A stretch of DNA of 64,000 bases from Micrococcus endophyticus (GTDB lineage Bacteria > Actinomycetota > Actinomycetes > Actinomycetales > Micrococcaceae), in assembly GCF_014205115.1 (NCBI RefSeq), contig NZ_JACHMW010000001.1, positions 1 through 64,000 of the forward strand, given 5' to 3'. The position numbers and the translations under genes are program-made. Numbering within the stretch: the stretch's first letter is position 1; each line of letters opens with the position of its first letter. The notes under the pieces are model-generated. The model saw nothing but the letters and a program-made list of their open reading frames with translations, had not been told where the DNA came from and ran no database searches. Shown here piece after piece: positions 12,335-53,829 of this stretch.

Positions 12335-12373
12335 TCCTGCACACCCCGCGCGTCGGCTGCTCTCCTCCCCAGC
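12335..12373 (+). promoter_or_regulatory. Bipartite motif, site 1 (before DUF559 gene 1)
   Basis: TCCTGCACA at 12335 and TCCCCAGC at 12366, start-to-start distance 31. A -10-like CACGCT lies at 12411-12416, 45 bases after the second half, and the gene's ATG at 12423 is 6 bases further. The same arrangement occurs at 30035, 51058 and 53791. Confidence 0.6.
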
Positions 12374-12422
12374 CGGCTCCGCCGCGCCCCGCGCACACCC
12401 CTGACGCGCCCACGCTGGGTGC

Positions 12423-13463
12423 ATGTCCACGTCCACGTCCACGTCCACGTCCCTGCCCCGCCCCCAGGACCACCGCCCGCCCGTCCCCGCGCGGCCGCTC
12501 GACGTCGTCGCCGGCGCACCGCTGTTCACGCGAGCGGACCTGAGCGCGGCCGGCCTCCCCGCGGACCGCCTGCGCGCCGCCGATGTCCGGCGCGTCACCC
12601 ACGGCGTCCATCGGCGGGCCGACGACGTCCCCGGCGACTGGGGCGCCCTCGGCTACGCGAAGCCCCCGGTCGCGTTCGCCCCGGAGGAGACGGCGGCGAT
12701 CGTGGCGGCTTCCCGGGGCGTCGCCTCCCACCTCAGCGCGCTGCTCCTGCACGGCATCCCGGTGCCGCCCTTCCTCGTCGACGACGGGCGGATCCACGTC
12801 TCGCGCCCGCACGGCCGCGGCGCCAGCGAGCGCCCGGAGGTCCGCAGCCACGCGCGCAGCGTCCCGGAGGCGGACGCGGTGGTCCTGCATGGCATCCGCG
12901 TGACGAGCGTCGAGCGCACGTGGGCGGACCTCGCCGCGCTGGTGCGCCCCGGCCATCTCGATCCGGTCGTGGCGGCGGGCGACGCCGTCGTCACCGGGAT
13001 CTGGACCCCGCAGGGCCGCCTGCCCCCGCGCACGACGATCCCGAGGCTGCGCGCGGGGCTGGCCCGGTCCGGGCGGTTCAAGGGGGCGCGGACGGCACGT
13101 GCGGCGCTGGGGCTGATCCGCGCCGGGGCGGACTCGCCCCCGGAGACGGCCCTGCGCCTGGCGCTGCTGCACGCCGGGCTTCCAGAGCCGGAGCTGCAGC
13201 TGGTCCTGCACCGCGGGCGCCGGCGCTCGCCGGACGCGGACCTGGGCTGGCGCGCCTGGCGCCTGGTGGTCCACTACGACGGCGACCCCCACCTCGATCC
13301 CGCGCAGCAGGCGGTGGACGCGTGGCGGAACGGGGGATGGGCCCGGGCGGGGTGGTCGCAGATCGTGGCCACCGTGGACGACGCGCGGGACGACTTCCGC
13401 AGGGTCGTGGCGGAGGTCTTGGCGCACCGGGCCCGCCTCGGCGGGCGGGTCTACGTCGCGTAG
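12423..13463 (+). CDS. DUF559/Vsr-like nuclease-fold protein with N-terminal winged-helix-like region (paralog 1)
   Basis: 346 aa. The N-terminus has a STSTSTSTS tract encoded by four TCCACG hexamers. Residues about 30-120 resemble the AbiEi-type winged helix (FTRADLSAAGLPADRLRA, VTHGVHRRAD). The C-terminal 110 residues look like a DUF559 (Vsr-related PD-(D/E)XK) domain: SPPETALRLALLHAGLPEPE, then DADLGWRAWRLVVHYDGDPH. In this family the last motif is normally EYDG; here it is HYDG, so catalysis is uncertain. It is clearly paralogous to the protein at 30124 (shared SVERTW, GRFKG, GADSPPET). Leaderless start; a repeat follows the stop at zero distance. Biological role unknown. Confidence 0.8.
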   Translation: MSTSTSTSTSLPRPQDHRPPVPARPLDVVAGAPLFTRADLSAAGLPADRLRAADVRRVTHGVHRRADDVPGDWGALGYAKPPVAFAPEETAAIVAASRGVASHLSALLLHGIPVPPFLVDDGRIHVSRPHGRGASERPEVRSHARSVPEADAVVLHGIRVTSVERTWADLAALVRPGHLDPVVAAGDAVVTGIWTPQGRLPPRTTIPRLRAGLARSGRFKGARTARAALGLIRAGADSPPETALRLALLHAGLPEPELQLVLHRGRRRSPDADLGWRAWRLVVHYDGDPHLDPAQQAVDAWRNGGWARAGWSQIVATVDDARDDFRRVVAEVLAHRARLGGRVYVA

Positions 13464-13618
13464 GGGAGGCTCCCGTTTCCCGCACTAAAGTGCCGGGGAA
13501 GCCTCCCGTTTCCCGCACGAAAGCGGGCCGGAAGGCTCCGGTTCCCCGAACGACAACGGGAGCCTCCCGTTTCCCGCACGAAAGCGCCGGGGAAGGCTCC
13601 CGTTTCCCGGACGAAAGT
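13464..13618 (-). repeat. Family A repeat array (A8-A12), reverse, five tandem copies
   Basis: Copies begin at 13464, 13497, 13530, 13558 and 13591 (steps 33, 33, 28, 33). Four keep the TCCCGTTTCCCG core; the third (13530) is degenerate (GGTTCCCCGAACGACAAC). The array starts at the base after the DUF559 stop and lies between that gene and the end of purM, which come together tail to tail. Confidence 0.9.
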
Positions 13619-13651
13619 GCCGGGGGAGGGGGACGGCGCAACCGCCGCGGA

Positions 13652-14809
13652 TCAGGCGGCGTAGGCGCCCCGCATGAGGACGGCGCCGCCGTCGACGCCC
13701 TTGGCGCCCTGGACGAAATCCAGGCCGGCGCCGGCGGCCTCGTCGGTGACCTGGCCGATGGTGCCCATCTCCCAGGCGTCGATGCCGGCGTCCACGAGCA
13801 CGGAGATCGACTTCGCGGCGATCTCCGGGTCCACCACGGCCACCATGCCCACGCCGAGGTTGAGCGTGCGCTCCAGGTCGGGCTGCGGGACGCGGCCAGC
13901 CTCGGCGAGCAGGCGGAACACGGGCGGCAGGGACCAGGTCTCGCGCTCCACGGTGGCCATCAGGCCCTGCGGGAGCACGCGCGCCAGGTTCGCGGCCAGG
14001 CCGCCGCCGGTCACGTGGCTGAACGCGCGGACGGGCAGGTCGGAGCCGCCGTCGTGCCCGTTGAGGCGCTGCACGAGGTCCAGGCAGGCGCGCGCGTAGA
14101 TGCGGGTCGGCACGAGCAGCTCCTCGCCGAGGGTGCAGCCGAGCTCGGTGACCTCGCGGTCGAGGGACCAGCCCGCAGCGTTCACCACGCGGCGCACGAG
14201 CGAGTAGCCGTTCGAGTGGATGCCGGAGGAGGCCATGCCGATCACGACGTCGCCGGACTGCACCCGCTCCGCGCCCAGGACCATGTCCGCCTCGACCACG
14301 CCGGTGGCGGCGCCCGCCACGTCGTACTCGTCCGCGGCCAGCAGACCTGGGTGCTCGGCGGTCTCTCCGCCCACGAGCGCGGTGTCCGCGAGGCGGCAGC
14401 CCTCGGCCACGCCGCGCACGATGTCCGCGATGCGCTCCGGGACCACCTTGCCGCAGGCGATGTAGTCGGTCATGAACAGGGGCTTGGCGCCGACCACCAC
14501 GATGTCGTCCACCACCATGCCCACGAGGTCCTGGCCGATGGTGTCGTGCTTGTCCATGGCCTGCGCGATGGCGACCTTGGTGCCCACGCCGTCCGTGGAG
14601 GTGGTGAGCAGCGGCTTGCGGTACTGCAGCAGCGCCGAGGCGTCCCACATGCCGGCGAAGCCGCCGATGCCGCCCATCACCTCGGGGGAGTGGGTGGCCT
14701 TGACGGCGTCCTTCATGAGCTCGACGGCGCGGTCGCCGGCCTCCACGTCGACGCCGGCGGAGGCATAGGTGATGGGGGTGTCGTCGGCGGTGTTCTGGTT
14801 CTCGGTCAC
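13652..14809 (-). CDS. purM: Phosphoribosylformylglycinamidine cyclo-ligase (AIR synthetase)
   Basis: Fifth step of purine synthesis: closes the imidazole ring of FGAM to AIR using ATP. 385 aa. Family landmarks: YASAGVDVEAGDRAVELM, STDGVGTKVAIAQAM, DIVVVGAKPLFMTDYIACGK, GGETAEHPGL, GIHSNGYSLVR and the C-terminal GVGMVAVVDPE. The GTG start at 14809 overlaps the purF stop by four bases (GTGA) and begins the conserved region at a normal distance. Followed by the repeat array rather than a simple terminator. Confidence 0.97.
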   Translation of the reverse strand: MTENQNTADDTPITYASAGVDVEAGDRAVELMKDAVKATHSPEVMGGIGGFAGMWDASALLQYRKPLLTTSTDGVGTKVAIAQAMDKHDTIGQDLVGMVVDDIVVVGAKPLFMTDYIACGKVVPERIADIVRGVAEGCRLADTALVGGETAEHPGLLAADEYDVAGAATGVVEADMVLGAERVQSGDVVIGMASSGIHSNGYSLVRRVVNAAGWSLDREVTELGCTLGEELLVPTRIYARACLDLVQRLNGHDGGSDLPVRAFSHVTGGGLAANLARVLPQGLMATVERETWSLPPVFRLLAEAGRVPQPDLERTLNLGVGMVAVVDPEIAAKSISVLVDAGIDAWEMGTIGQVTDEAAGAGLDFVQGAKGVDGGAVLMRGAYAA

Positions 14810-16419
14810 AGCGGGGTCCTGTCCGTCTCGGTGAGGAGCTTCTCGTCGTCGGCGTCGGGGCCGGGCTCGCAGCCGGTGGAGGCCACGGTGGTGGCGTCCC
14901 CGTCCGTGGCCGTCACGGTGACGGCGGCGGCGGAGCCGGCGTCGGTCTCGAGCACGGACTTGCCGCGCTCGCTCTCGTCCGCCAGCTCGATGGGGTACGT
15001 GCCGGTGAAGCAGGCGGTGCACAGCCGCTCGCGGGGCTGGCCGGTGGCGGCGATCATGGCCTCCTCGCTGATGTAGCCCAGCGAGTCGGCGCCGATGGAG
15101 GAGGCGATCTCGGTCACGCCGGCGCCGTTGGCGATCAGCTCGGCGCGGGAGGCGAAGTCGATCCCGTAGAAGCAGGGCCACTTCACGGGCGGCGAGGAGA
15201 TCTTCACGTGCACCTCGGCGGCGCCGGCCTCCTTGAGCATGCGCACGATGGCGCGTTGGGTGTTGCCGCGCACGATCGAGTCGTCGACGACGACGACGCG
15301 CTTGCCCGCCACCACGGACGGCTGCACGTTGAGCTTGAGCCGGATGCCGAGCTGGCGCAGGGTCTGGGAGGGCTGGATGAAGGTGCGGCCCACGTAGGCG
15401 TTCTTCACGAAGCCCTGGCGGAACGGCAGCCCGGAGGCCTCGGCGTAGCCCACGGCGGCGGGGGTGCCGGACTCGGGGACGGGGATCACGACGTCGGCGT
15501 CCACCGGCCCCTCGAGGGCGAGGCGCCGCCCCATGTCCACGCGGGACTCGTACACGGAGCGGCCGGAGATGGAGGCGTCCGGGCGGGCGAGGTAGACGTA
15601 CTCGAACACGCAGCCTGCGGGGGTGGCCTCGGCGAAGCGGGTGGAGCGGATGCCCTCCTCGTCGATGGCGATCATCTCGCCGGGCTCGACCTCGCGGATG
15701 AAGGAGGCGCCGACGGTGGCGAGGGCGGACTGCTCGGAGGCCACCACCCAGCCGCGCTCGAGGCGCCCGAGCACGAGGGGGCGGACGCCGTGCGGGTCGC
15801 GTGCGGCGTAGAGCGTGTGCTCGTCCATGAACACGAAGCAGTAGGCGCCGCGGACCTTGGGCAGCAGCTCGAGGGCGGTCTCCTCGAGCTTGCGGCCCTC
15901 CTCGCCGTGGAGCAGGGCGGTGACGAGGGCGGTGTCCGTGGTGTTGCCCTGCTTCATCTCGCCGCGCAGCTGGAGCCCGTCCCGGGCCTGGACCATGCGC
16001 AGCAGCTCGGCGGAGTTCACGAGGTTGCCGTTGTGGGCCAGGGCCACGGTGTCCCCGCCGGCGGTGGCGCCGAGGGTGGGCTGGGCGTTGGCCCACTTGT
16101 TGGCGCCGGTGGTGGAGTAGCGGCAGTGGCCGACGGCGATGTGGCCGGTGAGGGTGGCCAGGGTGGACTCGTCGAACACCTGGGAGACGAGGCCGATGTC
16201 CTTGTAGACGCCGATGCGCTTGCCGTCCGAGGCGGCGATGCCGGCGGACTCCTGGCCGCGGTGCTGGAGGGCGTAGAGGCCGTAGTAGGCCAGCTTCGCG
16301 ACCTCCTCGCCGGGCGCCCACACGCCGAAGACGCCGCATTCGTCCTGGGGCCCCTGGTCCTGGGGGTCGAGGGCGGCGGTCAGGCGGCCGTCTCCTCGTC
16401 GGGTGCGCGATGCGATCAC
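14806..16419 (-). CDS. purF: Amidophosphoribosyltransferase
   Basis: First committed step of purine synthesis: transfers glutamine amide nitrogen to PRPP. 537 aa. The catalytic cysteine is Cys28 in DECGVFG, so the first 27 residues are a propeptide. The glutaminase half contains GHCRYSTTGANKWANAQP and GNLVNS; the transferase half has the PRPP motif VVVVDDSIVRGNT. Cysteines in the C-terminal part (KWPCFYGIDF, ERLCTACFTG) match the iron-sulfur ligands of the B. subtilis-type enzyme. GTG start at 16419 overlaps the upstream stop by four bases. Confidence 0.97.
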   Translation of the reverse strand: MIASRTRRGDGRLTAALDPQDQGPQDECGVFGVWAPGEEVAKLAYYGLYALQHRGQESAGIAASDGKRIGVYKDIGLVSQVFDESTLATLTGHIAVGHCRYSTTGANKWANAQPTLGATAGGDTVALAHNGNLVNSAELLRMVQARDGLQLRGEMKQGNTTDTALVTALLHGEEGRKLEETALELLPKVRGAYCFVFMDEHTLYAARDPHGVRPLVLGRLERGWVVASEQSALATVGASFIREVEPGEMIAIDEEGIRSTRFAEATPAGCVFEYVYLARPDASISGRSVYESRVDMGRRLALEGPVDADVVIPVPESGTPAAVGYAEASGLPFRQGFVKNAYVGRTFIQPSQTLRQLGIRLKLNVQPSVVAGKRVVVVDDSIVRGNTQRAIVRMLKEAGAAEVHVKISSPPVKWPCFYGIDFASRAELIANGAGVTEIASSIGADSLGYISEEAMIAATGQPRERLCTACFTGTYPIELADESERGKSVLETDAGSAAAVTVTATDGDATTVASTGCEPGPDADDEKLLTETDRTPL

Positions 16420-16823
16420 TGCTCGGGGGTCCTCTCGGTGGGGGCGGTGCGGCTGCGGAGCGCGTCCGCGGCGGAGCGGTCCAGGCGGACGTCCGCCGCG
16501 GCGGGGTCGTCGGTGCGCTCGAGGACCACGGTGCGGGTGGTGGCGCGGGAGCGGCGGTCCAGCAGGAGCCACACGAGCAGCCCCAGGACGCCGGCGCCCA
16601 GCAGGGAGATCAGGCTCACGAACCCGAAGGTGTCCGCGAAGGACAGGGGGATGCCGGAGTACGGGTCCGCGGGCGGGGTGGGGGAGGCGTGGATGGCCGT
16701 GGTGGCCACGAGGGCGGCCAGGATGCCGAGCACGGCGGCCACGGCGAGCACCGCGGACAGCCGCGGCGCGCGGCGGACCGTGTAGGCGTGCTGATCGGCG
16801 GGGTGCGCGGGGCCGGAGGTCAT
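16416..16823 (-). CDS. Small two-TM membrane protein of the purF operon
   Basis: 135 aa with two hydrophobic segments (about 24-45 and 68-90) and a basic, then acidic C-terminal tail. No family recognised. The ATG at 16823 follows TAGACT by seven bases on the minus strand (leaderless), so this gene carries the promoter from which purF and purM are probably read. Its stop overlaps the purF GTG. Confidence 0.75.
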   Translation of the reverse strand: MTSGPAHPADQHAYTVRRAPRLSAVLAVAAVLGILAALVATTAIHASPTPPADPYSGIPLSFADTFGFVSLISLLGAGVLGLLVWLLLDRRSRATTRTVVLERTDDPAAADVRLDRSAADALRSRTAPTERTPEQ

Positions 16824-16863
16824 GCGGGGAAGTCTATCCAGTGGGGCGGTCGCCCTACGCCGA

Positions 16864-18921
16864 TCACCCGCGCAGGGCGTCTGCGGGACGCTGGCGGCTC
16901 GCCATCCAGGCCGGGTAGAGGGCGCTCACGACGCCGGCCGCGAGTCCCAGCGCCAGGGCCAGGGGCACGGCGGTGGGCGGCAGCACGGCGGCCCAGCCGC
17001 GGGACTGGGAGACGGCGAGGATCACGGCGGTGCCGACCGCAGACCCCACCGCTCCGCCGGCCAGGCCGATGAGCGTCCCCTCGAGGAGGAAGAGACGGGC
17101 GATCAGTCCTCGAGACGAGCCGATGGCCCGCCGCAGTGCGATCTCCGAGGTCCTCGACTGCACGGACAGGTACATGGCCGTGGACGCGCTGATCACGGCG
17201 AGCACGAGCAGCACGGCGGAGAGCACGCCGACGAACGCGCCGAGGTCGTCGGCGACGCCGGCGCGCAGCTCCCGCAAGTCGGCCACGGTCCGCACGGACA
17301 CGCTGCCGGGCGCCTCGGGGGCGATCGCCAGCGGGGCCGCCTGGGAGACGGGGTAGGGGAAGCCGGTCTCGGTGCGCACGACGAGCTCGGGGGCGGCCTG
17401 GCCCACGCCGGTGAGGACGGCGGGGGTGGCCAGCAGCGCGGTGGTCAGGGTGGGGGTGCGCTCGGTGGTGCGCACGATCCCGGCCACGTCCACGGCCGTC
17501 CCGCCGATCCACACCCGGTAGCCGGGGGCGAGGACGCCGGACTCGGGGACGGGCAGGTGCAGGGCCTGAGCGGCGGCGGGCGTGGCCCAGACCAGGCGGG
17601 CGTCCGGGGCGTCCAGCAGGGCGCGGGCGGTCTCCGAGGGCAGGCCCAGCTCGGCCAGGCGGGTGTAGGAGGCGGAGGCGCCCACGAGGGAGATGGCGGC
17701 GGGTGGCTCGGGCTCGCCGGGGCCGTTGCGGGTGATCTCGACGTCGGCGGGTGCCACCTGCACCACGTGCCCGGCTCCGAGCACGCGCGGCAGCGCGGCC
17801 AGGTCGGCCGTCCAGTCGGCCAGGCGGCGGTCGCCGGGGTCGAGCAGGCCTTCGGCCTGGGGCACGGTGACCACCACCTCGTCCAGGGCGGCGGCGGTGA
17901 GCCGGGCGCCCACCTGGGCGGTGGCGGTCTGGGTGAGCCCGAGGGCCGCGAGCAGCCCGCCGACGCCCACGGCGAAGGCCGCCATGAGCAGCACCGTCCG
18001 CAGGAAGCGCGAGGACAGGGAGGAGAGGGCGTCCACGGCGTCGTCCACCACGGCCCAGGCGCGTCGGGGTCCGTGCCGGTCCGCGCGGTCCCGGCGCGGA
18101 CCGGCCACCCGCGCCGCGGGGGCCGCAGCGTCGAGCGTGCCTGGCCGCGCCGTCGTCGTCCCGGAGGCCGTCGGCGGGACGGCGGCGAGGGTGAGCTCGG
18201 TGAGGACGCCGTCGGCGATGCGGACCTGCCGGTCCGCCACGGCGGCGACCCCGGGGTCGTGGGTGATGAGCAGGATGGTGGTGCCCTCCGCGTGGAGGCG
18301 GCGCAGGTGCTCCACCACGATCCGGCCGTTCTCGGTGTCCAGGTTGCCGGTCGGCTCGTCCGCGAGCACGACGCGCGGGCGGGTGGCCACGGCGCGCGCG
18401 ATCGCCAGGCGCTGCCGCTCGCCGCCGGAGAGCAGCTTGGCGCGGGAGCCGAGCCGGTGGCCGAGGCCGAGCAGCCTCAGCGTCTCCCCGGCGCGGGCGT
18501 CCCGTTCGACCGGCGGCACCCGCTGGATGCGCAGACCGAGTGCCGCGTTGACGGCCACGGACTCCTCGCTGAGCACGTGGCTGGACTGGAACACGAACCC
18601 GAAGGTCTCCGAGCGCAGCCGGTCCCGTTCGCCCTCGCCCATGCCGGTGGTGTCGCGGCCGCGCACGCGGTAGATGCCGGAGTCGGGCCGGTCCAGCAGT
18701 CCGACGACGTTGAGCAGGGTGGACTTGCCGGATCCGGAGGGTCCCACGATCGCCACGAACTCGCCGGCGTGGACGGTGAGGTCCACGGAGTCCAGGGCCG
18801 GCCGTTGCGCGCCGGCGAACGCCTTGCGGACGCCGGCGAGCTCCAGCAGGGGGACCGGCGGGTCGTCCGGCCGGCGGTCCGGGGCCTCCGCCGCGGCCGG
18901 CACGTCCGACCGCTCGCTCAT
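16864..18921 (-). CDS. MacB-like ABC protein (fused ATPase and FtsX-type permease)
   Basis: 685 aa. An N-terminal LolD/MacB-type ATPase (residues 1-250) has Walker [10 protein letters not shown] at 60-68, signature LLSGGERQRLAIARA and Walker B VVLADEPTGNLD. A Pro/Ala linker leads to a permease with a first TM near residue 315, a large extracellular domain, then three TMs near the C-terminus (FVGVLSAVLLVLAVISAS and following), the MacB topology. Such pumps work with a periplasmic-type adaptor to move peptides from the outer face of the membrane rather than transport from the cytosol (established for MacB). Third gene of the operon; ATG overlaps the adaptor stop. Confidence 0.9.
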   Translation of the reverse strand: MSERSDVPAAAEAPDRRPDDPPVPLLELAGVRKAFAGAQRPALDSVDLTVHAGEFVAIVGPSGSGKSTLLNVVGLLDRPDSGIYRVRGRDTTGMGEGERDRLRSETFGFVFQSSHVLSEESVAVNAALGLRIQRVPPVERDARAGETLRLLGLGHRLGSRAKLLSGGERQRLAIARAVATRPRVVLADEPTGNLDTENGRIVVEHLRRLHAEGTTILLITHDPGVAAVADRQVRIADGVLTELTLAAVPPTASGTTTARPGTLDAAAPAARVAGPRRDRADRHGPRRAWAVVDDAVDALSSLSSRFLRTVLLMAAFAVGVGGLLAALGLTQTATAQVGARLTAAALDEVVVTVPQAEGLLDPGDRRLADWTADLAALPRVLGAGHVVQVAPADVEITRNGPGEPEPPAAISLVGASASYTRLAELGLPSETARALLDAPDARLVWATPAAAQALHLPVPESGVLAPGYRVWIGGTAVDVAGIVRTTERTPTLTTALLATPAVLTGVGQAAPELVVRTETGFPYPVSQAAPLAIAPEAPGSVSVRTVADLRELRAGVADDLGAFVGVLSAVLLVLAVISASTAMYLSVQSRTSEIALRRAIGSSRGLIARLFLLEGTLIGLAGGAVGSAVGTAVILAVSQSRGWAAVLPPTAVPLALALGLAAGVVSALYPAWMASRQRPADALRG

Positions 18922-30034: not shown

Positions 30035-30073
30035 TCCTGCACAGACGACGGCGGCCGCGCGCCCGTCCACGGA
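30035..30073 (+). promoter_or_regulatory. Bipartite motif, site 2 (before DUF559 gene 2)
   Basis: TCCTGCACAG at 30035 and TCCACGGA at 30066 (31 apart). CAGTGT at 30111-30116, 45 bases after the second half, is the matching -10-like hexamer, with the ATG seven bases after it. Confidence 0.6.
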
Positions 30074-30123
30074 CGGCCCGCTCCGGTGATCGGCCCGACG
30101 CCGGACGGGCCAGTGTTCGCGAC

Positions 30124-31092
30124 ATGTCGCCTCGTGAACCCGCCCCCCTGCCCGCCGCCTTCTCCGACCTCCCCTTCGGCGCGGCCGACCTCCGCCGCGC
30201 CGGCGTCTCGGTCGAGCGCACCCGCCGCGCCGATCTGCGCCGCGTGAGCCAGGGGCTCCACCGGGCCCGGGAGGCCGAGCGCGGCGAGTGGGCCGACCTC
30301 GGCTACCCCGTGGACCCCCTGCCGTGGGTGCCGGAGGAGGCAGCCGCCGTCGTGCCCTTGACCGGGGGAGTGGTCTCCCACCTGAGCGCGCTGCTGCTGC
30401 ACCGGCTGACGGTGCCGCCGTGGGTGCGGCCGGACGGGCGGCTGCACGTGAGCCGGCGGCACGGGCGCGGCGTCTGCGACCGGTCCGGGGTGGTCACGCA
30501 CGGGCGCTCCGTGCCGCAGGAGGACGTGGTGGCGCTGCACGGGATCGCCGTCACGTCGGTGGAGCGGACGTGGCTGGACCTGGCCTCGCTGATGCCGCGG
30601 GGTCCGGTGGATCCGCTGGTGATCGCCGGGGACGCGCTCGTGAACCGTCCGTGGATCGCGGGGGACGGGCGGCGGGGCGAGCCCGTGACGAGCGTCGAGG
30701 CGCTGCGGGCGGCGCTGCGCCGGGCGGGGCGGTTCAAGGGCGTGCGCGCGGCCCGGGGGGCCCTGGACCTGGTGCGGGTGGGGGCCGACTCGCCGCCGGA
30801 GACCGAGCTGCGGCTCGCGCTGGTGGACGCCGGCCTTCCGGAGCCGGAGCTGCAGGTCTCCGGGGACCCCGGCGACCGGTTCGCGCCCGTCGCGGACCTG
30901 GGGTATCGGGACTGGAGGCTGGCGCTGCAGTACGACGGCGGGCATCACCGTTCTCGCGAGCAGCAGGCCCGCGACGCGCGGCGGGACGGCTGGTTCCACG
31001 ACCGCGGCTGGCGGTCGCTGAGGCTCACCGCCGACGACCGGCTCGACGGGTTCCGGCGCGCCATCGCCTGGGTGCGCCGCCACCGTCCCTGA
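30124..31092 (+). CDS. DUF559/Vsr-like nuclease-fold protein with N-terminal winged-helix-like region (paralog 2)
   Basis: 322 aa, paralog of the 12423 protein over its full length. N-terminal part: DLRRAGVSVERTRRADLRRV, then SQGLHRARE, the AbiEi/DUF559 lead-in. Middle: VTSVERTWLDLASLM and GRFKGVRAARGALDLVR. C-terminal domain: SPPETELRLALVDAGLPEPE, DLGYRDWRLALQYDGGHH and a final GWRSLRLTADD. The usual EYDG is QYDG here. Leaderless ATG; palindrome B2 begins at the last base of the stop codon and B1 lies upstream. Many actinobacterial homologues are annotated only as endonuclease-domain proteins; function unknown. Confidence 0.82.
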   Translation: MSPREPAPLPAAFSDLPFGAADLRRAGVSVERTRRADLRRVSQGLHRAREAERGEWADLGYPVDPLPWVPEEAAAVVPLTGGVVSHLSALLLHRLTVPPWVRPDGRLHVSRRHGRGVCDRSGVVTHGRSVPQEDVVALHGIAVTSVERTWLDLASLMPRGPVDPLVIAGDALVNRPWIAGDGRRGEPVTSVEALRAALRRAGRFKGVRAARGALDLVRVGADSPPETELRLALVDAGLPEPELQVSGDPGDRFAPVADLGYRDWRLALQYDGGHHRSREQQARDARRDGWFHDRGWRSLRLTADDRLDGFRRAIAWVRRHRP

Positions 31093-44920: not shown

Positions 44921-46861
44921 TCAGGCGCCGGGGGCCAGCGTCTCCACGATGCGCTGCATGACCGTGGGGTCGGCCAGCGTGGTGGCGTCGCCCGGATCGC
45001 GGCCCTCGGCCACGTCCTTGAGGAGACGGCGCATGATCTTGCCGGAGCGGGTCTTCGGCAGCTCCGGGACCACGAGGACGCGCTTGGGCTTGGCGATCGG
45101 GCCGATGTCCCGGCCCACGTGCTGGCGCAGCTCCTCCTCGACCTCGGCGACGTCGCGGCCGGACGCGGCGGCCTCCTCGGTGAGCAGCACGAAGGCGACG
45201 ACGGCCTCGCCCGTGGTCTCGTCGGCGGCGCCCACCACGGCGGACTCGGCGACGGACGGGTGCGCCACGAGGGAGGACTCGATCTCCGTGGTGGACAGGC
45301 GGTGCCCGGAGACGTTCATGACGTCGTCCACGCGGCCGAGCAGCCAGATGTCCCCGTCCTCGTCGTAGCGGGCGCCGTCGCCGGCGAAGTACATGCCGGG
45401 GAAGCGGGACCAGTAGGTCTCCTTGAAGCGCTCCGGGTTGCCCCAGATGCCGCGCAGCATGGACGGCCACGGCTCGCGGGCCACGAGGAAGCCGGCGGAG
45501 GTGTCCTTCATGGGCTCGCCGATCTCGTCCACCACCTCGAGCGTCACGCCGGGCACCGGGGTCTGCGCGGAGCCGGGCTTGAGCGTGGTCACGCCGGGCA
45601 GCGGGGTGAGCATGTGGGCGCCGGTCTCGGTCTGCCACCAGGTGTCCACGATCGGGCAGCGGCCGCCGCCGATGACCTCGTGGTACCAGCGCCAGGCCTC
45701 GGGGTTGATGGCCTCGCCCACGGTGCCGAGCACGCGCAGGCTGGACAGGTCGTACTCGTCCGGGATCTGGCGGCCCCACTTCATGCAGGTGCGGATGGCG
45801 GTGGGCGCCGTGTAGAGGATGCTCACGCCGTACTTCTGGACGATCTCCCACCAGCGGCCCTGGTGCGGGGAGTCGGGGGTGCCCTCGTAGATCACCTGGG
45901 TGGCGCCGTTGACGAGCGGCGCGTAGGCCACGTAGGAGTGACCGGTGACCCAGCCGACGTCGGCGGTGCACCAGTAGACGTCCGTCTCCGGGTGCAGGTC
46001 GAAGGTGTCGTGGTGGGTGGCCGCGGTCTGCACGAGGTAGCCGCCGGTGGTGTGCAGGATGCCCTTGGGCTTCCCGGTGGTGCCGGAGGTGTAGAGGATG
46101 TAGAGCGGGTGCTCGGCGTCGTGCCAGACCAGCTCGTGCTCGTCGGACTGCGCGGGGACCACGTCGTGCCACCACAGGTCGCGGCCCTCGACGAGGGACA
46201 CCTCGGCCTCGTTGCGGCGCACCACGAGCACGTGCTGCACGGAGTGGCCGGGCGCGGAGAGCGCCTCGTCCACGGCGGGCTTGAGCATGGAGGGCTTGCC
46301 GCGGCGGAAGGAGCCGTCCGCGGTGACCACGAGCTTGGCCTCGGCGTCGTCCACGCGGGAGCGCAGGGCGTCGGCGGAGAAGCCGCCGAACACCACGGAG
46401 TGCACCGCCCCGATGCGCGCGCAGGCGAGCATCGTGATGACGGCCTCGGGGATCATCGGCAGGTACACGGCCACGCGGTCGCCCTTGGCCACGCCGAGGG
46501 ACTCGAACGCGTTGGCGGTGCGGCGGACCTCGGAGGCCAGCTCGGCGTAGGTGTAGGTGCGGGTGTCGCCCGGCTCGCCCTGGAAGTGGACGGCCACGCG
46601 GTCCCCGTTGCCGGCCTCCACGTGCCGGTCCAGCGCGTTGTAGGCGGCGTTGGTGGTGCCGCCGACGAACCACTTGGCGAACGGCGCGTCCGACCAGTCG
46701 AGCACCTCGGTGAAGTCCTGCTCCCAGTGGAGCACCTCGCGGGCGCGGCGGCCCCAGTAGGCCAGGCGGTCCTCGGCGGCCTCCTCGTAGAGGTCGGCGC
46801 CGGCCACGGCCTGGGCGGCGAACTCGGCGGGCGGCGGGAACGTGGGGATCTGCTCGTCCAT
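44921..46861 (-). CDS. acs: Acetyl-CoA synthetase
   Basis: Makes acetyl-CoA from acetate, ATP and CoA. 646 aa, the usual length. Landmarks: [34 protein letters not shown] (AMP-binding P-loop), [27 protein letters not shown] and the acetylation-site region [11 protein letters not shown], whose lysine is the sirtuin-controlled residue in other bacteria. ATG 46861 has GAAAGGA upstream at good distance. Two CRP-like sites lie before it, so cAMP/CRP control of acetate use is likely. Confidence 0.97.
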
Positions 46862-47892: not shown

Positions 47893-47908
47893 GGGGCCGC
47901 GCTCAGCG

Positions 47909-47936: not shown

Positions 47937-47940
47937 GCGA

Positions 47941-48009
47941 GGCGCGCGCTCAGCCGGCGGCGAGGCGCGCGCTCAGCCGGCGGCGAGGCGCGCGCTCAGC
48001 CGGCGGCGA
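47941..48009. repeat. Three tandem 23-bp repeats at the end of the flavoprotein gene
   Basis: GGCGCGCGCTCAGCCGGCGG plus CGA, repeated three times without a mismatch (47941, 47964, 47987). Each unit holds a stop codon for the leftward strand; 23 is not a multiple of three, so together they close all three frames. Confidence 0.95.
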
Positions 48010-49189
48010 GGCCGGCCAGTACGTCGTCGACCGCACCGCGGGCGTGGACGCCCACGCCCACGAGGGTGGCGGTGGCCGCGCCGCACCAGTCGTCGTAGCC
48101 GAGCAGGTGCAGGCCCGGCACGTCCACGGAGGCCGTGGGCACCTCCCGCCGCGTCGCCGGGACGCCGGAGGAGCGGTGCGTCAGGTCGAGGCCGCGCAGG
48201 TGGCGCAGGTCGGCCCGGAAGCCCGTGCACCACACCACCGCGTCCAGGGCCCGCTCCGCGCCGCGCACCTCGGCCGCCAGGCGGCTCGAGGCCGCCCAGC
48301 CGTGCACCGCGCCGGCGTCGGGATCCCACCGGGCGCCGTCGGGGATGAAGGCCGAGACCATCGGCACGGCGTGGAGGCCGGCCTCGTCGCGGGCGCGGCG
48401 CACCGGCGGGAGCATGACGATGTCCCCGAGATCGCCCACGCGCGCCTCCGAGCGGCCCAGCACCCGGGCCGAGGCGGTCTGGAAGAGGTGCCGGCCGTCC
48501 ACGTCGTCCGGCATGAACCGCGGCGGACGGCGCGTGGCCCACGTGGTCTCCACGCCGGCCAGCAGCAGGTCCGCGGCGATCTGGGCCCCCGAGTTGCCGC
48601 CGCCCACCACCAGCACGCGACGCCCGGCGAAGGGCCCCGGACGCCGGTAGGCCGAGGAGTGCAGCTGCTCGCCGCGGAAGCCGTCCCCGAAGGCCACCGC
48701 GGGCAGGAACGGCCGCGTGAAGGAGCCGGTCGCGGAAATCACGGCGCGGGCGGCCACGGGCGGGCCGTCCTCCCGGTGGAGGGTGAACGGATGCGGCGCG
48801 TCGGCGTCGTGCTCCACGCGCGTGACGCGGACGCCGTGCCGCACGGGCAGGGCGTAGCGCTGCTCGTAGTCGGCGAGGTAGGCCACCACATGGTCCGCGC
48901 CCGGCGTGTCCGGGCCGGGGGACGGCGGCATGCGGCGGCCGGGCAGGGAGGAGTGCTCGGCCGGGGAGAACAGGCGCAGGGAGTCCCAGTGGTGCGGCCA
49001 CGCGCCGCCCGGGCCGGGGGAGGCGTCCAGCAGGACGAACGACGACGGCGGCCCCGGTCGGCGCCCGCGCTCGGCCTCGCGGGCGGCGCGGGCCAGGAAG
49101 TAGCCGGCCGCGAGCCCGGACTGGCCGGCCCCGATCACCGCGACGTCCACGGCCGAGGGCGGAGCCGGCGGTGTGGTCCGGGTGGTCAT
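47996..49189 (-). CDS. FAD-dependent flavoprotein monooxygenase-like oxidoreductase
   Basis: 397 aa, two-dinucleotide-binding-domain flavoprotein. FAD site: VAVIGAGQSGLAAGYFLAR at about 15-33; NADPH site: RRVLVVGGGNSGAQIAADLL near 200; the ATG motif before it is SATGSFTRP. Closest types are CzcO/ArsO-like or YUCCA-like monooxygenases; the substrate is unknown. ATG at 49189 follows TAGCCT by seven bases on the minus strand (leaderless). The stop codon lies inside the third of three tandem 23-bp repeats. Confidence 0.88.
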   Translation of the reverse strand: MTTRTTPPAPPSAVDVAVIGAGQSGLAAGYFLARAAREAERGRRPGPPSSFVLLDASPGPGGAWPHHWDSLRLFSPAEHSSLPGRRMPPSPGPDTPGADHVVAYLADYEQRYALPVRHGVRVTRVEHDADAPHPFTLHREDGPPVAARAVISATGSFTRPFLPAVAFGDGFRGEQLHSSAYRRPGPFAGRRVLVVGGGNSGAQIAADLLLAGVETTWATRRPPRFMPDDVDGRHLFQTASARVLGRSEARVGDLGDIVMLPPVRRARDEAGLHAVPMVSAFIPDGARWDPDAGAVHGWAASSRLAAEVRGAERALDAVVWCTGFRADLRHLRGLDLTHRSSGVPATRREVPTASVDVPGLHLLGYDDWCGAATATLVGVGVHARGAVDDVLAGLAAG

Positions 49190-49296
49190 GGCCTCGAGGC
49201 TACGGCCCCGGGAGGCGCGGCGGGAGGGGTGCCGGGGCGCCGTCGTCGGGCCGGGGATCGGGCCGGGGATCGGGTGGTCGGCCCACCGCAGTCCTG

Positions 49297-49302
49297 TAAA
49301 CT
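49297..49302 (+). promoter_or_regulatory. Extended -10 promoter of the FMN reductase gene
   Basis: TGTAAACT gives an extended -10 (TG then TAAACT), inside an unusually AT-rich stretch (TGTAAACTTGAAATAAAG, 49295-49312). The stretch after it may also hold a regulator site. A three-codon ORF ATGGACCCATGA (49329) overlaps the real ATG at 49337. Confidence 0.5.
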
Positions 49303-49336
49303 TGAAATAAAGCGTGAACTGGTCCAGGATGGACCC

Positions 49337-49900
49337 ATGACCAAGATCGCCATCATCACCGGATCCACCCGCCCCAACCGCCTGAACCGCCAGGTGGCCG
49401 ACTGGGTGCTGGAGCGCGCCAACGGCCGCGGCGACGCCGCCGAGTACGAGCTCGTGGACATCGCCGACTTCGACCTGCCGCTGCTGGACGAGCCGATGCC
49501 CGCCGCCTGGCAGCAGTACGCCAACGAGCACACCAAGGCCTGGTCGGCGAAGATCTCCGAGTTCGACGGCTTCGTGTTCGTGACCCCGGAGTACAACCAC
49601 TCCCTCGCCCCGGCCCTGGCCAACGCGCTGTCCTACCTGAACGCCGAGTGGGCCAACAAGGCCGCCGGCATCGTGGGCTACGGCTCCGCCATGGGCGTGC
49701 GTGCCACCGAGCACCTGCGCGCCATCCTCTCGGAGCTGCAGGTGGCCCACGTCCAGAAGCACGGCATGTTCAGCCTCTTCACCGACTTCAAGGACTTCGC
49801 CGAGTTCCAGCCCACCGAGCTGCAGGCCGCCTCGGTGGACCCGATGTTCGACCAGCTGCTGTCCTGGACCGAGGCCATGAAGACGGTCCGCCAGGGCTGA
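49337..49900 (+). CDS. NADPH-dependent FMN reductase family protein
   Basis: 187-aa flavodoxin-fold quinone or FMN reductase. FMN phosphate site: IITGSTRPNRLNRQVADWVL; isoalloxazine loop: VFVTPEYNHSLAPALANALSYL, highly conserved (PEYNHS). Uses NAD(P)H to reduce flavin, quinones or azo dyes in the cytoplasm. Its divergent neighbour is a flavoprotein monooxygenase, so it could supply or share reduced flavin, but each has its own promoter. Confidence 0.93.
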   Translation: MTKIAIITGSTRPNRLNRQVADWVLERANGRGDAAEYELVDIADFDLPLLDEPMPAAWQQYANEHTKAWSAKISEFDGFVFVTPEYNHSLAPALANALSYLNAEWANKAAGIVGYGSAMGVRATEHLRAILSELQVAHVQKHGMFSLFTDFKDFAEFQPTELQAASVDPMFDQLLSWTEAMKTVRQG

Positions 49901-49929
49901 TCGCCCGCGCCTGACCCCGCACCCAGCGG

Positions 49930-49986
49930 TTTCGGGTGAGTTGTCGGAGGTGTTCGAGCCGAACACCTCCGAGAACCCGCCCGAAT
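49930..49986 (+). repeat. Family C palindromic element, copy C1
   Basis: 27-base arms, 23 matching; the inner GGAGGTGTTCG and CGAACACCTCC pair perfectly around a three-base loop. The left arm begins TTTCGGGTGAGTTGTCGGAG. It lies 30 bases after the FMN reductase stop and could double as its terminator. Confidence 0.85.
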
Positions 49987-50045
49987 CTCCACGGCGGGCC
50001 CGACCCCGATGCACCGGGTCCGGGCCCGCCGTCGTCGTGAGCGCG

Positions 50046-50106
50046 GCGAATGGGGTGAGTTGTCGGAGGTGTAAGCGGCCTGGACCCCCGAGAAGTCGCC
50101 CGAATC
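50046..50106 (+). repeat. Family C palindromic element, copy C2
   Basis: Outer arms GGGGTGAGTTGTCGGAGG and CCCCCGAGAAGTCGCCC with the same spacing as C1, but the inner part has diverged. It lies about 50 bases upstream of the NUDIX promoter. Confidence 0.8.
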
Positions 50107-50166
50107 TCTTCCCCCCGGCAGGCCGTCCCGCCGACCCGCGCCAGGGGTGCCGCTACCGTGGAGCCC

Positions 50167-51015
50167 ATGCCCGATCGCCCCGCCCTCACCCACTCCCAGC
50201 CCGGCAGAATGGGGCGAGATGTCGGAGGTGAGGGGCGGAACGACCTCCGAGAAGTCGCCCCGAACGCGCAGGGTGGGGCGGACATGGCCGCGGTCCGGGA
50301 CCGGCTCGCAGCGCTGGTCGAGCGGCACGGCGTGCCTGCGGACCAGGCCCCGCGCGACGCGCTCACGGAGATCCCCGCGAGTGCGGTCAGCACGTGGGGC
50401 TTCGACTGGCCCCGGGCCGAGCGGGCGCGCCCCTCGGCGGTGCTCATCCTCTTCGGCTCCCTCGACGACGTCCCGGCCCACCACGCCGACGACCGCGTCC
50501 ACCCGGACGTGGACGTGCTGCTCACCGAGCGCGCCGCCACCCTGCGCACGCACGCGGGACAGATCGCGTTCCCGGGCGGGCGCGTGGACCCCGAGGACGC
50601 GGACGTCGTGGCCACCGCCCTGCGCGAGGCCGAGGAGGAGACGGGCCTGGACCCGGACGGCGTCGAGGTCCTCGGCGTGCTGCCGCCCGTGCCCGTGGTG
50701 GTCTCCGGGCACGTGGTGCACCCGGTGATCGGCTGGTGGCGGGACCCCAGCCGCGTGGCCGTGGTGGACCAGGCCGAGGCGGCCGCCGTGTTCCGCATGC
50801 CCGTGGGCGACCTGGTGGACCCCGCGAACCGGTGCCGCGTGGCCCGGCCCGGCGGCCGCCGCGGCGAGACGCCCGGGTTCCTCGTGGGGGAGCGGCTCGT
50901 GTGGGGCTTCACCGCCGCCCTGCTGGACCGGATCCTCACGCTGCTGGACTGGGACACGCCCTGGGACGCGGGCCGCGTGATCGACGCGCACACTCACGCG
51001 CCCCTGCGCGGCTGA
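50167..51015 (+). CDS. NUDIX hydrolase, CoA pyrophosphatase type
   Basis: 282 aa. The family signature LLTERAATLRTHAGQIAFPG and the Nudix box GGRVDPEDADVVATALREAE, then EETGL, are those of NudL-type CoA pyrophosphatases, which cut CoA to phosphopantetheine and 3',5'-ADP. TACCGT (50154-50159) plus seven bases precedes ATG 50167 (leaderless). Residues about 15-32 are encoded by repeat C3; the normal N-terminus would resume at MAAVRDRLAAL (50284), an alternative start. Confidence 0.9.
   Translation: MPDRPALTHSQPGRMGRDVGGEGRNDLREVAPNAQGGADMAAVRDRLAALVERHGVPADQAPRDALTEIPASAVSTWGFDWPRAERARPSAVLILFGSLDDVPAHHADDRVHPDVDVLLTERAATLRTHAGQIAFPGGRVDPEDADVVATALREAEEETGLDPDGVEVLGVLPPVPVVVSGHVVHPVIGWWRDPSRVAVVDQAEAAAVFRMPVGDLVDPANRCRVARPGGRRGETPGFLVGERLVWGFTAALLDRILTLLDWDTPWDAGRVIDAHTHAPLRG
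50207..50264 (+). repeat. Family C palindromic element, copy C3, inside a coding region
   Basis: GAATGGGGCGAGATGTCGGAGG on the left is mirrored by CCTCCGAGAAGTCGCCCC on the right. Unlike the other copies it lies 40 bases downstream of the NUDIX ATG and is read through in frame. Confidence 0.8.
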
Positions 51016-51057
51016 CGAGCCGCCGTCCGGCCGACGCCCGGCCGTCCGCATGACGAC

Positions 51058-51096
51058 TCCTGCACAGGCGCCCGCAGGGGCTCCGCGATCCCCAGG
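51058..51096 (+). promoter_or_regulatory. Bipartite motif, site 3 (before tadA)
   Basis: ACTCCTGCACAG (core TCCTGCACA at 51058) and TCCCCAGG at 51089, 31 apart. TGGACT at 51134-51139 is 45 bases after the second half, leaving a leader of about 50 nt with Shine-Dalgarno AGGAGG before the ATG at 51198. Confidence 0.6.
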
Positions 51097-51197
51097 TCTG
51101 GGGCTGCTCGGGGTGGGCGCACCCCGGCGGCGCTGGACTGGAGGGGCCGGCGGCCGCGGACCGCGGCGGCCGTCGCCCGTCCCGCAGGAGGTCCGCC

Positions 51198-52643
51198 ATG
51201 CGCCCGTTCGTCCCCGCCGCCCCGCCGCGCCCGTCCCGTTCCCGACGACGGCGCCGCGGCCCGTCCGCCCTCGCGGTCCCGAGCCCGCGGCTCGCCCCGC
51301 AGCCACCGCCGCGCGAGGCGGCCGACGCGGCGGCCCCGCACCTGTCTGATCCGCGCCCGTCCGACCCGGCGCCCCGCGCCGGTGCCCCTCTTGCCGACAC
51401 TCCGGCCCCGTTCCCCGATCGGACTGCTGCGATTTCCGACGCGCCAGCCCCGCTTCTCGCCGCCCCCGCCCCGCCGCCCACGACACCGAACTCGGAGGCG
51501 GACGCCGTGCGCCGCCGGGTCGCCGAGGCCCGTGCCGCGGCGGCCGAGGGGCAGGAGCCCGCGCTCGCCCCGCTCGTCGCGGAGGCGCTGGGCGTCCCGG
51601 CGACGGATCCGCGCGTGGCCGCGCTCGTGGACGAGCTGGACGGGTTCGGCCCGCTCGCCGGGTGGGTCCGCGCGCCCGGCGTCACCGACGTGCTCGTGGA
51701 CGGCTCCGGCGCCGTGTGGACCGACGGCGCCGAGGGCCTTCTGCGCCGCCCCCAGCGCCTCGACCCGCACGCGGCACAGGCCCTCGCCGTGCGCTTGGTG
51801 CACCGCGCGGGGCGCCGCCTCGACGCCGCCGTGCCGCTGGCCGACGCCCGTGTGGACGGGGTGCGAGTGCACGCCGTCCTGCCGCCCGTCAGTGGCGACG
51901 GGACCCTGCTGAGCCTGCGCATCCCGGCCGCGCGCACGCCCTCGCTGGCGGAGCTGGCCGCGGGCTGGCCCGACGGCGACCTGTGGGGCGAGGCCCTGGA
52001 GGCCCTGGTCCGGGACCGGGCAAGCGTGCTGGTCAGCGGCGCCACGGGCACGGGCAAGACCACCCTCCTCGCCGCCGCCCTGGGCTGTGTGCCGGGCGAC
52101 GAGCGGATCCTCACCGTGGAGGACACCGCGGAGGCCGCCCCGGAGCACCCGCACGTCGTCGCCCTGCAGTGCCGCGCCGCCAACGCCGAGGGCGCGGGCG
52201 CGGTGGGCCTGGCCGAGCTGATCTGCCACGCGCTGCGGATGCGCCCGGACCGGCTCGTCGTGGGGGAGTGCCGCGGCGCCGAGGTGGCCGACTTCCTCAC
52301 GGCGCTCAACACCGGCCACCAGGGCGCGTGGGGCACCCTGCACGCCAACGGTGCGGCGGACGTCCCGGCGCGGCTGACCGCCATGGGCTCCCTGGCCGGC
52401 TGGGGGCCGGACACGGTGGCGGCGCAGGCCCGCGCGGGGGTCGACGCGGTGGTCCACCTGGTCCGGGACCGCCACGGCCGCCACCCGGTGGAGCTGGCCG
52501 TCCCCGATCCCGACGCGCGGGGGTTCGCCCTGCTGCCCGCCCTCACCTGGACGCCTGGACCGGGGCCCGGGGACGGCTCGACCGCGGAGGGGCCGGGCCT
52601 GCGGGCGCTCGCGGCCCGGCTGGCGGGGCGGGGGAGCCGGTGA
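51198..52643 (+). CDS. tadA: TadA/CpaF-type secretion ATPase of the Flp pilus
   Basis: 481 aa. The first 100 residues are Pro/Ala/Arg-rich and low in structure. Then the usual TadA N-domain (ALVDELDGFGPLAGWVRAPG, VTDVLVDGSG) and the ATPase core: Walker A SGATGTGKTTLL near 280, Asp box TVEDTAEA, Walker B MRPDRLVVGECRGAE, His box GTLHANGA. Powers assembly of Flp pili; in M. luteus such pili are required for natural transformation (established). AGGAGG precedes the ATG. Confidence 0.93.
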   Translation: MRPFVPAAPPRPSRSRRRRRGPSALAVPSPRLAPQPPPREAADAAAPHLSDPRPSDPAPRAGAPLADTPAPFPDRTAAISDAPAPLLAAPAPPPTTPNSEADAVRRRVAEARAAAAEGQEPALAPLVAEALGVPATDPRVAALVDELDGFGPLAGWVRAPGVTDVLVDGSGAVWTDGAEGLLRRPQRLDPHAAQALAVRLVHRAGRRLDAAVPLADARVDGVRVHAVLPPVSGDGTLLSLRIPAARTPSLAELAAGWPDGDLWGEALEALVRDRASVLVSGATGTGKTTLLAAALGCVPGDERILTVEDTAEAAPEHPHVVALQCRAANAEGAGAVGLAELICHALRMRPDRLVVGECRGAEVADFLTALNTGHQGAWGTLHANGAADVPARLTAMGSLAGWGPDTVAAQARAGVDAVVHLVRDRHGRHPVELAVPDPDARGFALLPALTWTPGPGPGDGSTAEGPGLRALAARLAGRGSR

Positions 52644-53731
52644 GCGCCGCGGCGCCGGAGGACGCCACGGAGGAGCTCGTCGGCGTCCTGCGCCGCTGGG
52701 CGGCGCTCGTGTCCGCGGGCCTCACCGAGGAGGCGGCCTGGCGGGAGACCGCCCGCATGCTGCCCGACGACGACGGCCACGCCCGTCACGCGGCGCGCCT
52801 GCGGGCCGAGCGGCTCGCCTGGGACGCGGCCGGTGACCTGTCGACCGGCCGGGATGCTCCGGATGTCCGCGGTCTTCGCCGCGACGAGCATCCGCCTGGC
52901 GACACCCACGACGCCTCGCCCGACCGCTCGCGCCGACGCTGGTGCCCGCCGTGGCGCACACCGCCCCCGGACCCCGGGTGGGTGCTGGTGGACGCAGCGC
53001 TGGAGGCCGGTGCCCGCGCGGGCGCCGCACCGGCCGTCGTCGTCCGCCGGCTGGCGGAGTCGCTGGAGGCCGACGTGGACGCGGCCCGGGCCCGGCGCTC
53101 CGCCGCCGCGGGCCCGGCGGCGACGGCCCGGCTGCTGCAGTGGCTGCCCCTCGGCGGCGTGGGCCTGGCGTGGCTGCTCGGCTCGTCCCCGTGGGAGACG
53201 GTCTCGACGCCGTTCGGTGCCGCCGTCGCGGCGGTGGGGCTGCTGTTCTGGCTCGCCGGACGGTCCTGGACCCGGCTGCTGTTGCGCTCGGCCGCCCGGG
53301 AGCCGGCGTCGCTGACGGCGCCGGTCGTGCTGGACGTGCTGGCGGCACTCCTGGGGGCGGGCCGGTCGCTGCCGGCCGCCCTGGACGACCTCGCCCGCAC
53401 CCTGCCCGGGGCGCGCGGCCTGCGCGTGACGTCCGCGCTGCTGCTGTGGGGCCGCGGCTGGGACGAGGCGTGGGCGGGGATCGGGGAGGAGACCGTGTGG
53501 GCCGAGGCCGCCGCGCGGCTGCGCCCGCTGCACCGGTCCGGGATGGCGGGCGCGCGCACCCTGGCGGAGTCCGCAGCCGCGGCGCGGCAGCAGGGCCGGC
53601 GCGCGGACGAGCGCGCCGCGGAGGAGCTCGCGGTCCGGCTGGTGATGCCCCTGGGGCTGTGCCTGCTGCCGGCCTTCGTGTGCTGGGGCGTGATCCCGGT
53701 GGTCATGGCGCTGCTGGAGGCGGGCGCGTGA
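52640..53731 (+). CDS. TadB/TadC-like inner-membrane platform protein (T2SSF domain)
   Basis: 363 aa. Hydrophobic segments at about 170-215 and at the C-terminus (LGLCLLPAFVCWGVIPVVMAL) flank a cytoplasmic T2SSF domain: LDVLAALLGAGRSLPAALDD, RTLAESAAAARQQGRRADER. The first 115 residues form an extra T2SSF-like half (WAALVSAGLTEEAAW) followed by a polar linker, so it may be a fused TadB-TadC pair; only one complete unit is certain. GTG overlaps the tadA stop. Confidence 0.86.
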   Translation: MSAAAPEDATEELVGVLRRWAALVSAGLTEEAAWRETARMLPDDDGHARHAARLRAERLAWDAAGDLSTGRDAPDVRGLRRDEHPPGDTHDASPDRSRRRWCPPWRTPPPDPGWVLVDAALEAGARAGAAPAVVVRRLAESLEADVDAARARRSAAAGPAATARLLQWLPLGGVGLAWLLGSSPWETVSTPFGAAVAAVGLLFWLAGRSWTRLLLRSAAREPASLTAPVVLDVLAALLGAGRSLPAALDDLARTLPGARGLRVTSALLLWGRGWDEAWAGIGEETVWAEAAARLRPLHRSGMAGARTLAESAAAARQQGRRADERAAEELAVRLVMPLGLCLLPAFVCWGVIPVVMALLEAGA

Positions 53732-53790
53732 ACGCCGGGCGCCTGAACACCGGACGCGGCAGGCGACGTCGGCCCACCCGGTCGGTCCAC

Positions 53791-53829
53791 TCCTGCACAG
53801 CCCGCCGACGGGGCCGTCCCCTCCACGGA
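53791..53829 (+). promoter_or_regulatory. Bipartite motif, site 4 (before the prepilin genes)
   Basis: ACTCCTGCACAG (core at 53791) and TCCACGGA at 53822, 31 apart; GAGTCT at 53867-53872 is 45 bases after the second half. It splits the Tad cluster into two units: tadA-tadB and the pilin genes. Confidence 0.6.

Follow-up and report, generated by a model that had tools for sequence, protein, structure and literature searches.

A bipartite promoter element with fixed 31-base spacing precedes competence, pilus and DUF559-type genes in Micrococcus endophyticus and probably defines a competence regulon

In positions 1 to 64,000 of contig NZ_JACHMW010000001.1 of Micrococcus endophyticus (this stretch is called the window; the genome has 2.71 Mb), the sequence TCCTGCACA is followed, exactly 31 bases further on, by TCCMCRG in front of two DUF559-type genes and two genes of a Flp pilus cluster (Table 1). 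The pair is a real genome-wide promoter element with 31-base spacing. It is very likely the cis-element of a natural-competence regulon of the Micrococcaceae and Microbacteriaceae, and we therefore call it the com-box, with box 1 and box 2 as its halves.

A sequence-only reading had placed the first element at four positions on the forward strand and the second one 31 bases after each, and all eight positions were exact. Four copies of TCCTGCACA-N22-TCCMCRG stand in the window against 0.001 expected; 2,000 first-order Markov windows held two exact matches in total and never more than one per window. Box 1 alone occurred 0.33 times on average (at most twice) in 100 window shuffles. Over the whole genome it is less telling, its 45 copies being little in excess of the 35 found for the reversed control. 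A fifth window copy (46051–46059, reverse strand) falls inside an open coding frame, and no second half follows it at +31. The second half was found at +31 in 12 of 44 box 1 sites and only four times in total over the other 99 offsets between 10 and 109; the 45th site, 2544767, also an exact pair, was outside this set. The genome contains 13 exact pairs and at least five one-mismatch sites. At 116879, the second half stands at 32, while the counterpart in the probable Micrococcus luteus genome described below has it at 31, and the two-mismatch site 1348201 ahead of an integrase gene was excluded as a probable chance match.

The genes behind these sites include ones for DNA uptake and processing. 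The comEA, tadA and flp genes carry exact sites, as do ssb and recA, and they are joined by dnaG, a RecQ-like helicase gene, tag and five DUF559-type genes. The families comEA, SSB, RecA, DnaG, M23, tadA, flp, WXG100, DUF4192, Tag, RecQ-like, ComF, UPF0102 and DUF559 were assigned by Pfam; the matches of the five DUF559-type proteins were weak and only that of 2500442 exceeded the cut-off. The comEC gene carries no separate annotation in this genome.

A similar set was found in a genome of 2,501,097 bases (G108), which is almost certainly that of M. luteus NCTC 2665 because the position of its HTH_17-cpaB locus agrees to about 0.1 kb with published coordinates of single-nucleotide polymorphisms (SNPs). 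It has ten exact and eight one-mismatch sites, and all 18 precede tblastn counterparts of the M. endophyticus box genes: comEA (one mismatch), tadA and flp (both exact), ssb, recA, dnaG, tag, the DUF4192, M23 and WXG100 genes, the counterparts of 2544767 and 116879, one AbiEi-like and five DUF559-type genes. None of its four two-mismatch sites precedes such a counterpart at the right place by tblastn. The UPF0102-ComM-DprA operon of G108, identified by Pfam, has box 1 and a poor box 2.

Among relatives, whose family was taken as Micrococcaceae, the exact pair occurred in 16 of 149 genomes (reversed control, none): all eight of the own genus, five of eight in genus g4, two in g24 and one in g28, the last looking like chance. 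The exact match in genome G028 (L061) looks gene-internal. A scan of named records that also required an ATG, and from which the own-genome and near-identical records may be missing, gave 105 stretches. Ninety-five of them belong to Micrococcaceae or Microbacteriaceae (Micrococcus, Citricoccus, Arthrobacter and Specibacter; Curtobacterium, Microbacterium, Herbiconiux, Subtercola and unnamed Microbacteriaceae); the others are two unplaced Actinomycetes metagenome-assembled genomes, both with AbiEi/DUF559-like genes, and eight chance-looking records. Genes were read in 80 of the 105 stretches (L146–L225), which yielded 74 proteins of at least 60 amino acids, or 73 after exclusion of one from Marinobacter. 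In relatives, the box precedes yraN-comM-dprA, comF, cpaB and DUF222-HNH genes. UPF0102 genes with an exact box were present in four Curtobacterium records and one other Microbacteriaceae record; comM was next in all five and dprA followed in four, within the available stretch.

In other genera, genes of these kinds carry a diverged box. The variant TCCTCCACAG-N21-TCCACAT/A was found in register when the sequence upstream of UPF0102 genes was compared in 30 of 61 family genomes: seven of the 30 scored at least 15 of 17 and shuffles reached at most 14. A family scan detected 75 variant sites, spread over 28 of 110 genomes and representing 16 of 32 genera, and none with the reversed control. Sixty-four of these sites were read and 52 proteins were scanned, 12 with doubtful reading frames being excluded. 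With one protein possibly counted in two families, the targets were UPF0102 (7), SSB (4), ComEA-type SLBB+HHH (4), DUF4192, WXG100, DUF559, MTES_1575, AbiEi_4 and ComF-type PRTase (3 each), M23, DUF222 and HNH (2 each), RecA (1) and RcpC/CpaB (1). Over the order, the relaxed form with ATG matched 12 of 376 genomes, with three control hits, the exact form six of 248, including the own genome, and outside the order three of 285 genomes matched versus two control genomes, which is near background.

The sequence-only reading had expected the spacing to hold at other sites, the motif to precede genes rather than to be spread within them, and comEA, pilus, further DUF559 and dprA genes to appear among its targets. 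These points hold, the yraN-comM-dprA genes being found behind the box in relatives (behind exact boxes in Microbacteriaceae), and they support its suggestion of a competence regulon that may include the DUF559 genes.

The promoter anatomy is regular. In site sets collected with patterns that held no start codon, 31 of the 60 exact sites and 37 of the 64 variant sites had an ATG beginning at +86 to +90; other five-base windows averaged 2.5 and 4.8, respectively. In the own genome, the start codon lies at +87 to +91 in eight of the 13 exact sites and at +134 to +154 in the other five; in all five one-mismatch sites it is at +88. The variant set shows a −10 signal (A at +77 in 47/64, T at +81 in 49/64), and the only other notable one is a weak preference for T at +53 (30/64), which corresponds to −35. 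Counted from the start codon, the −10 bases lie at −11 (91/133) and −7 (96/133), most of these 133 sites having come from a pattern that required the ATG. This agrees with a transcription start at the A of the ATG, and most box-gene mRNAs are predicted to be leaderless; a 5′ leader would be present on those of tadA, flp, WXG100 and recA. The half-sites then fall at about −88 and −57 of the predicted transcription starts, as the earlier reading had proposed.

The fixed 31 bases between the boxes, together with the slight give (86 to 91) in the distance to the start codon, suggest a single rigid complex that occupies one side of the helix and, from its upstream position, acts on polymerase where the promoter offers little −35. 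We infer that a sequence-specific activator would bind TCCTSCACAG (−88) and TCCMCRN (−57), which share one DNA face at a distance of about three helical turns, and would recruit RNA polymerase to promoters that combine a −10 (NANNNT) with no more than a weak −35, the majority of target mRNAs starting at the A of the ATG. Once active in competence, the regulon would supply the Flp pilus, the DNA receptor ComEA with ComEC, ComF, YraN-ComM-DprA, SSB and RecA, as well as further DNA-handling proteins including a nuclease-like DUF559/AbiEi-type set that may act on incoming DNA.

The arrangement resembles known competence systems without coinciding with any of them. The ComK regulon of Bacillus subtilis is likewise a competence regulon with DNA-uptake, ssb and recA targets, and its K-boxes are also paired upstream of the promoter at whole-turn spacings (8, 18 or 31 bases). 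K-boxes are AT-rich, however, whereas the com-box halves are GC-rich and unequal, and the com-box targets include Flp pilus genes and are mostly predicted to be leaderless. In Streptococcus, the late competence genes also share one short promoter signature, that of ComX/sigma-X, but the cin-box is a sigma-factor site near the start, whereas the conserved com-box blocks lie at −88 and −57 next to an ordinary −10, and the element does not belong to that class. The TfoX/CRP-S regulon of gamma-proteobacteria likewise has an activator site ahead of its competence genes; CRP-S sites are palindromic around a TGTGA/TCACA core, and no such palindrome was seen in the com-box by eye, no scan being made. 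The SOS (LexA) site is the palindrome GAAC-N4-GTTC, which is absent by eye from the conserved com-box columns, the target promoters not having been scanned for LexA sites. The available parts of two papers state that M. luteus yielded no ComK homologue (PMC4322843, PMC6667448), and this, with the GC-rich halves, sets the com-box apart from the ComK regulon.

The published M. luteus com system concerns the same genes (comEA/EC, tad-2 and dprA) in probably the same species as G108. The comEC and tad clusters are required for transformation (PMC4322843), comEA and comEC are co-transcribed (PMC8467076), and comEA, tadA2 and tadA1 drop together about 4-fold in one mutant by quantitative reverse-transcription PCR (PMC6667448); the co-variation of comEA and tadA2 supports common control. 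A 2026 paper called the M. luteus competence regulon "currently unknown" (PMC12849477). The available parts of PMC4322843, PMC6667448, PMC8467076 and PMC12849477 describe neither a promoter motif nor a regulon for the com genes, and a literature search of titles and abstract openings, with subscription journals mostly outside its coverage, found neither mentioned. A deletion library of predicted DNA-binding proteins yielded two mutants with strongly lowered transformability, both attributed by the authors to auxotrophy, with a direct role of IclR left possible (PMC6667448). The candidate regulators are IclR Mlut_08730, the response regulator Mlut_03350 and the HTH_17 protein Mlut_14660 (PMC6667448, PMC8467076). 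In 24 family genomes, 12 with and 12 without box matches, a Trans_reg_C protein was found at the expected place of Mlut_03350 in all 24 (assigned by position and domain) and the HTH_17 protein in 23; both are too widespread for a choice between them.

Several findings weigh against a competence regulon defined by this box. Most family genomes lack it (133 of 149 the exact form, 82 of 110 the variant). In the own genome, only box 1 is good at comF (413673, PRTase plus zinc ribbon) and at yraN/UPF0102 (1039650). Neither form of the box stands at a promoter in the G108 stretches taken to be tad-1 and the cpaB locus, and both tad-1 and cpaB are required for normal transformation (PMC4322843, PMC8467076); as tadA1 drops with tadA2 yet has no box in G108, co-regulation is wider than the box. 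Some targets are housekeeping genes (recA, dnaG, an rpsF gene), and some exact boxes in Curtobacterium stand at the right distance from genes without an evident tie to competence, namely those for GH15/trehalase-like proteins, polyphosphate kinase, proA-like proteins (by eye) and DUF11 surface proteins (L166, L176, L197, L199, L206, L211, L224; L159, L168, L172, L179, L207). No competence master activator is named in the available parts of PMC6667448, and expression, footprint or binding data for the box were not found in the literature.

Among the other explanations, the sites might be operators of a repressor, e.g. the HTH_17 protein Mlut_14660, whose loss or change would turn the regulon on. 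All com-up mutants obtained with ethyl methanesulfonate but one had a SNP in the 550-bp cluster-13 region comprising Mlut_14660 and cpaB, the exception had a SNP in a second gene of the same annotation, and strains with a single SNP, either within the gene (13-M93) or in its 5′ region (13-M1090), mimicked the parental mutants (PMC8467076). However, another SNP in the 5′ region (13-M89) did not mimic its parent, and a cpaB SNP or knockout also raised comEA expression (PMC8467076), so that the HTH_17 gene is not the sole reading of these mutants. Sites at −88 and −57 are moreover far from polymerase for simple repression, and the HTH_17 protein, present in 23 of 24 genomes of which 12 lack the box, does not track the box. 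We consider repression unlikely.

It is somewhat more doubtful still that the box marks a general regulon of DNA metabolism or DNA stress in which competence genes are only some of the members. The box genes recA, ssb, tag, dnaG, recQ-like and the nuclease-like ones would suit such a regulon, as would the non-competence genes of Curtobacterium, but comEA, comF, dprA-comM-yraN and the genes for the Flp pilin and pilus ATPase recur behind it across genera. In the own genome, recA also has a separate LexA-like palindrome (CGAACATGTGTTCG, by eye), which lies directly upstream of the com-box (L038), and may have two controls.

The variant has TCCACA in both halves and in this resembles the DnaA box, TTRTCCACA, so that DnaA might tie the regulon to replication. 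This is very improbable: TTG precedes only eight of 64 variant second boxes, the exact-form second boxes are TCCCCAG, TCCACGG and similar, and TTRTCCACA does not occur in the window. That the promoter was merely copied along with duplicated DUF559 genes or a mobile element is hardly credible, since, although several DUF559 copies per genome carry it, the gene families behind the box are many, unrelated and found in different genomes, the bases that separate and flank its two halves vary by site (by eye), and viral contigs gave no exact and only two variant matches.

The competence regulon thus remains the preferred reading, and it links a signature to a listed gene set, with 18 promoters in each of two Micrococcus genomes. 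It makes competence genes predictable in two actinobacterial families, offers the com-box sequence as DNA bait for finding the regulator, and gives a functional lead for the DUF559/AbiEi-like, DUF4192 and DUF222-HNH proteins. A broader proposal, for and against which we see the balance as even, is that the shared regulon is run by a novel class of activator on GC-rich unequal half-sites, that DUF559/AbiEi-like and DUF222-HNH proteins process or police incoming DNA, and that Curtobacterium, Microbacterium and Citricoccus are transformable. The two DUF559 proteins of the window are 54% identical in alignment. In 16 chosen members from several genera, E226, R230, D258, G272 and R287 (numbering of the protein starting at 30124) are invariant, and the profile of these 16 matches 3hrl, an endonuclease-like protein which we take to be Vsr-like (E 2e-5), and weakly PvuRts1I (E 0.013). 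Such proteins may act on incoming DNA during uptake.

Two points of the sequence-only reading need correction. Its four −10-like hexamers are at the positions given, but TGGACT of site 3 lacks the A that 47 of the 64 variant sites have at this place. Its "four unlinked promoters" are indeed four copies, but not unlinked, as the two pilus sites are only 2.7 kb apart in one cluster (tadA, a tadBC-type gene, flp and small pilin-like genes), which leaves three loci.

Table 1 Features of the four window sites and box genes elsewhere in the M. endophyticus genome
Feature	Position	Strand	Remark
Site 1 box 1 TCCTGCACAC	12335..12344	+	
Site 1 box 2 TCCCCAG	12366..12372	+	
Site 1 −10-like hexamer CACGCT	12411..12416	+	transcription start predicted at A of ATG, 12423, by position rule
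DUF559-like protein, 346 amino acids	12423..13463	+	exact site 12335; start codon +88; no Pfam match of its own
Site 2 box 1 TCCTGCACAG	30035..30044	+	
Site 2 box 2 TCCACGG	30066..30072	+	
Site 2 −10-like hexamer CAGTGT	30111..30116	+	
DUF559 protein, 322 amino acids	30124..31092	+	exact site 30035; start +89; PF04480 E 8e-4, just under cut-off
Site 3 box 1 TCCTGCACAG	51058..51067	+	
Site 3 box 2 TCCCCAG	51089..51095	+	
Site 3 −10-like hexamer TGGACT	51134..51139	+	weak
tadA/cpaF pilus ATPase	51198..52643	+	exact site 51058; T2SSE, E 2e-41; start +140
tadBC-type protein	52640..53731	+	T2SSF, E 6e-9; start codon provisional
Site 4 box 1 TCCTGCACAG	53791..53800	+	
Site 4 box 2 TCCACGG	53822..53828	+	
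Site 4 −10-like hexamer GAGTCT	53867..53872	+	
flp pilin, 77 amino acids	53941..54174	+	exact site 53791; DUF4244, E 3e-18; start +150
Pilin-like protein	54167..54619	+	weak DUF4244 and TadE matches, both under cut-offs
TadE/G-like protein	54616..55113	+	weak match, E 0.05
DUF559-type gene	212729		exact site
DUF4192	579700		one-mismatch site
comEA	693459		exact site
ssb	992771		exact site
Tag glycosylase	1191877		one-mismatch site
recA	1270347		exact site
M23 peptidase	1325474		exact site
dnaG	1393209		exact site
AbiEi-like protein	1642626		one-mismatch site; no Pfam match
WXG100	1672365		exact site
RecQ-like helicase	1778573	−	exact site
DUF559-type gene	2185867		one-mismatch site
DUF559-type gene	2500442	−	one-mismatch site; Pfam match above cut-off
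145-amino-acid protein of unknown family	2544767		exact site

Some further observations concern the box in relatives. Upstream of yraN (L339, L341, L345), two genomes of genus g32 keep box 1 without box 2, and in one genome of g17 the second box is shifted by one base. In genus g4 (L077, L089, L090), the box stands ahead of a gene read by eye as rpsF, perhaps so as to reach ssb in the ribosomal operon. Small genes for WXG100-type proteins, which are ESX-type, are recurrent box targets (L029, L299, L062, L079, L384, L413, L434; L062, L079 and single variant loci were typed by eye). A family of about 130–160 amino acids with a WVLFL-like stretch recurs behind the box in several Microbacteriaceae genera (L147, L163, L165, L169, L180, L182, L194, L195, L204, L221); the one member tested had no Pfam match. 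Proteins labelled TadZ-like from their sequence (L063–L065, L190, L223 and relatives) are not claimed as TadZ because L190, the one tested, had no Pfam match. The variant boxes on viral contigs L445 and L446 have an ATG at the right distance.

Two kinds of repeat were also seen. A hairpin-like dispersed repeat around GCACTTTCGTGCGGGAAACGGGAG adjoins site 1 (window 12295–12334, and 13587–13624 on the reverse strand) and recurs in the own genome at 240819, 467205 and 787326. Repeats starting TCCCGCACAG with GGGGTTATCC/GGATAACCCC arms, which are not com-boxes, occur at 2413184–2414068 in G108 and at 2325362 in the own genome.

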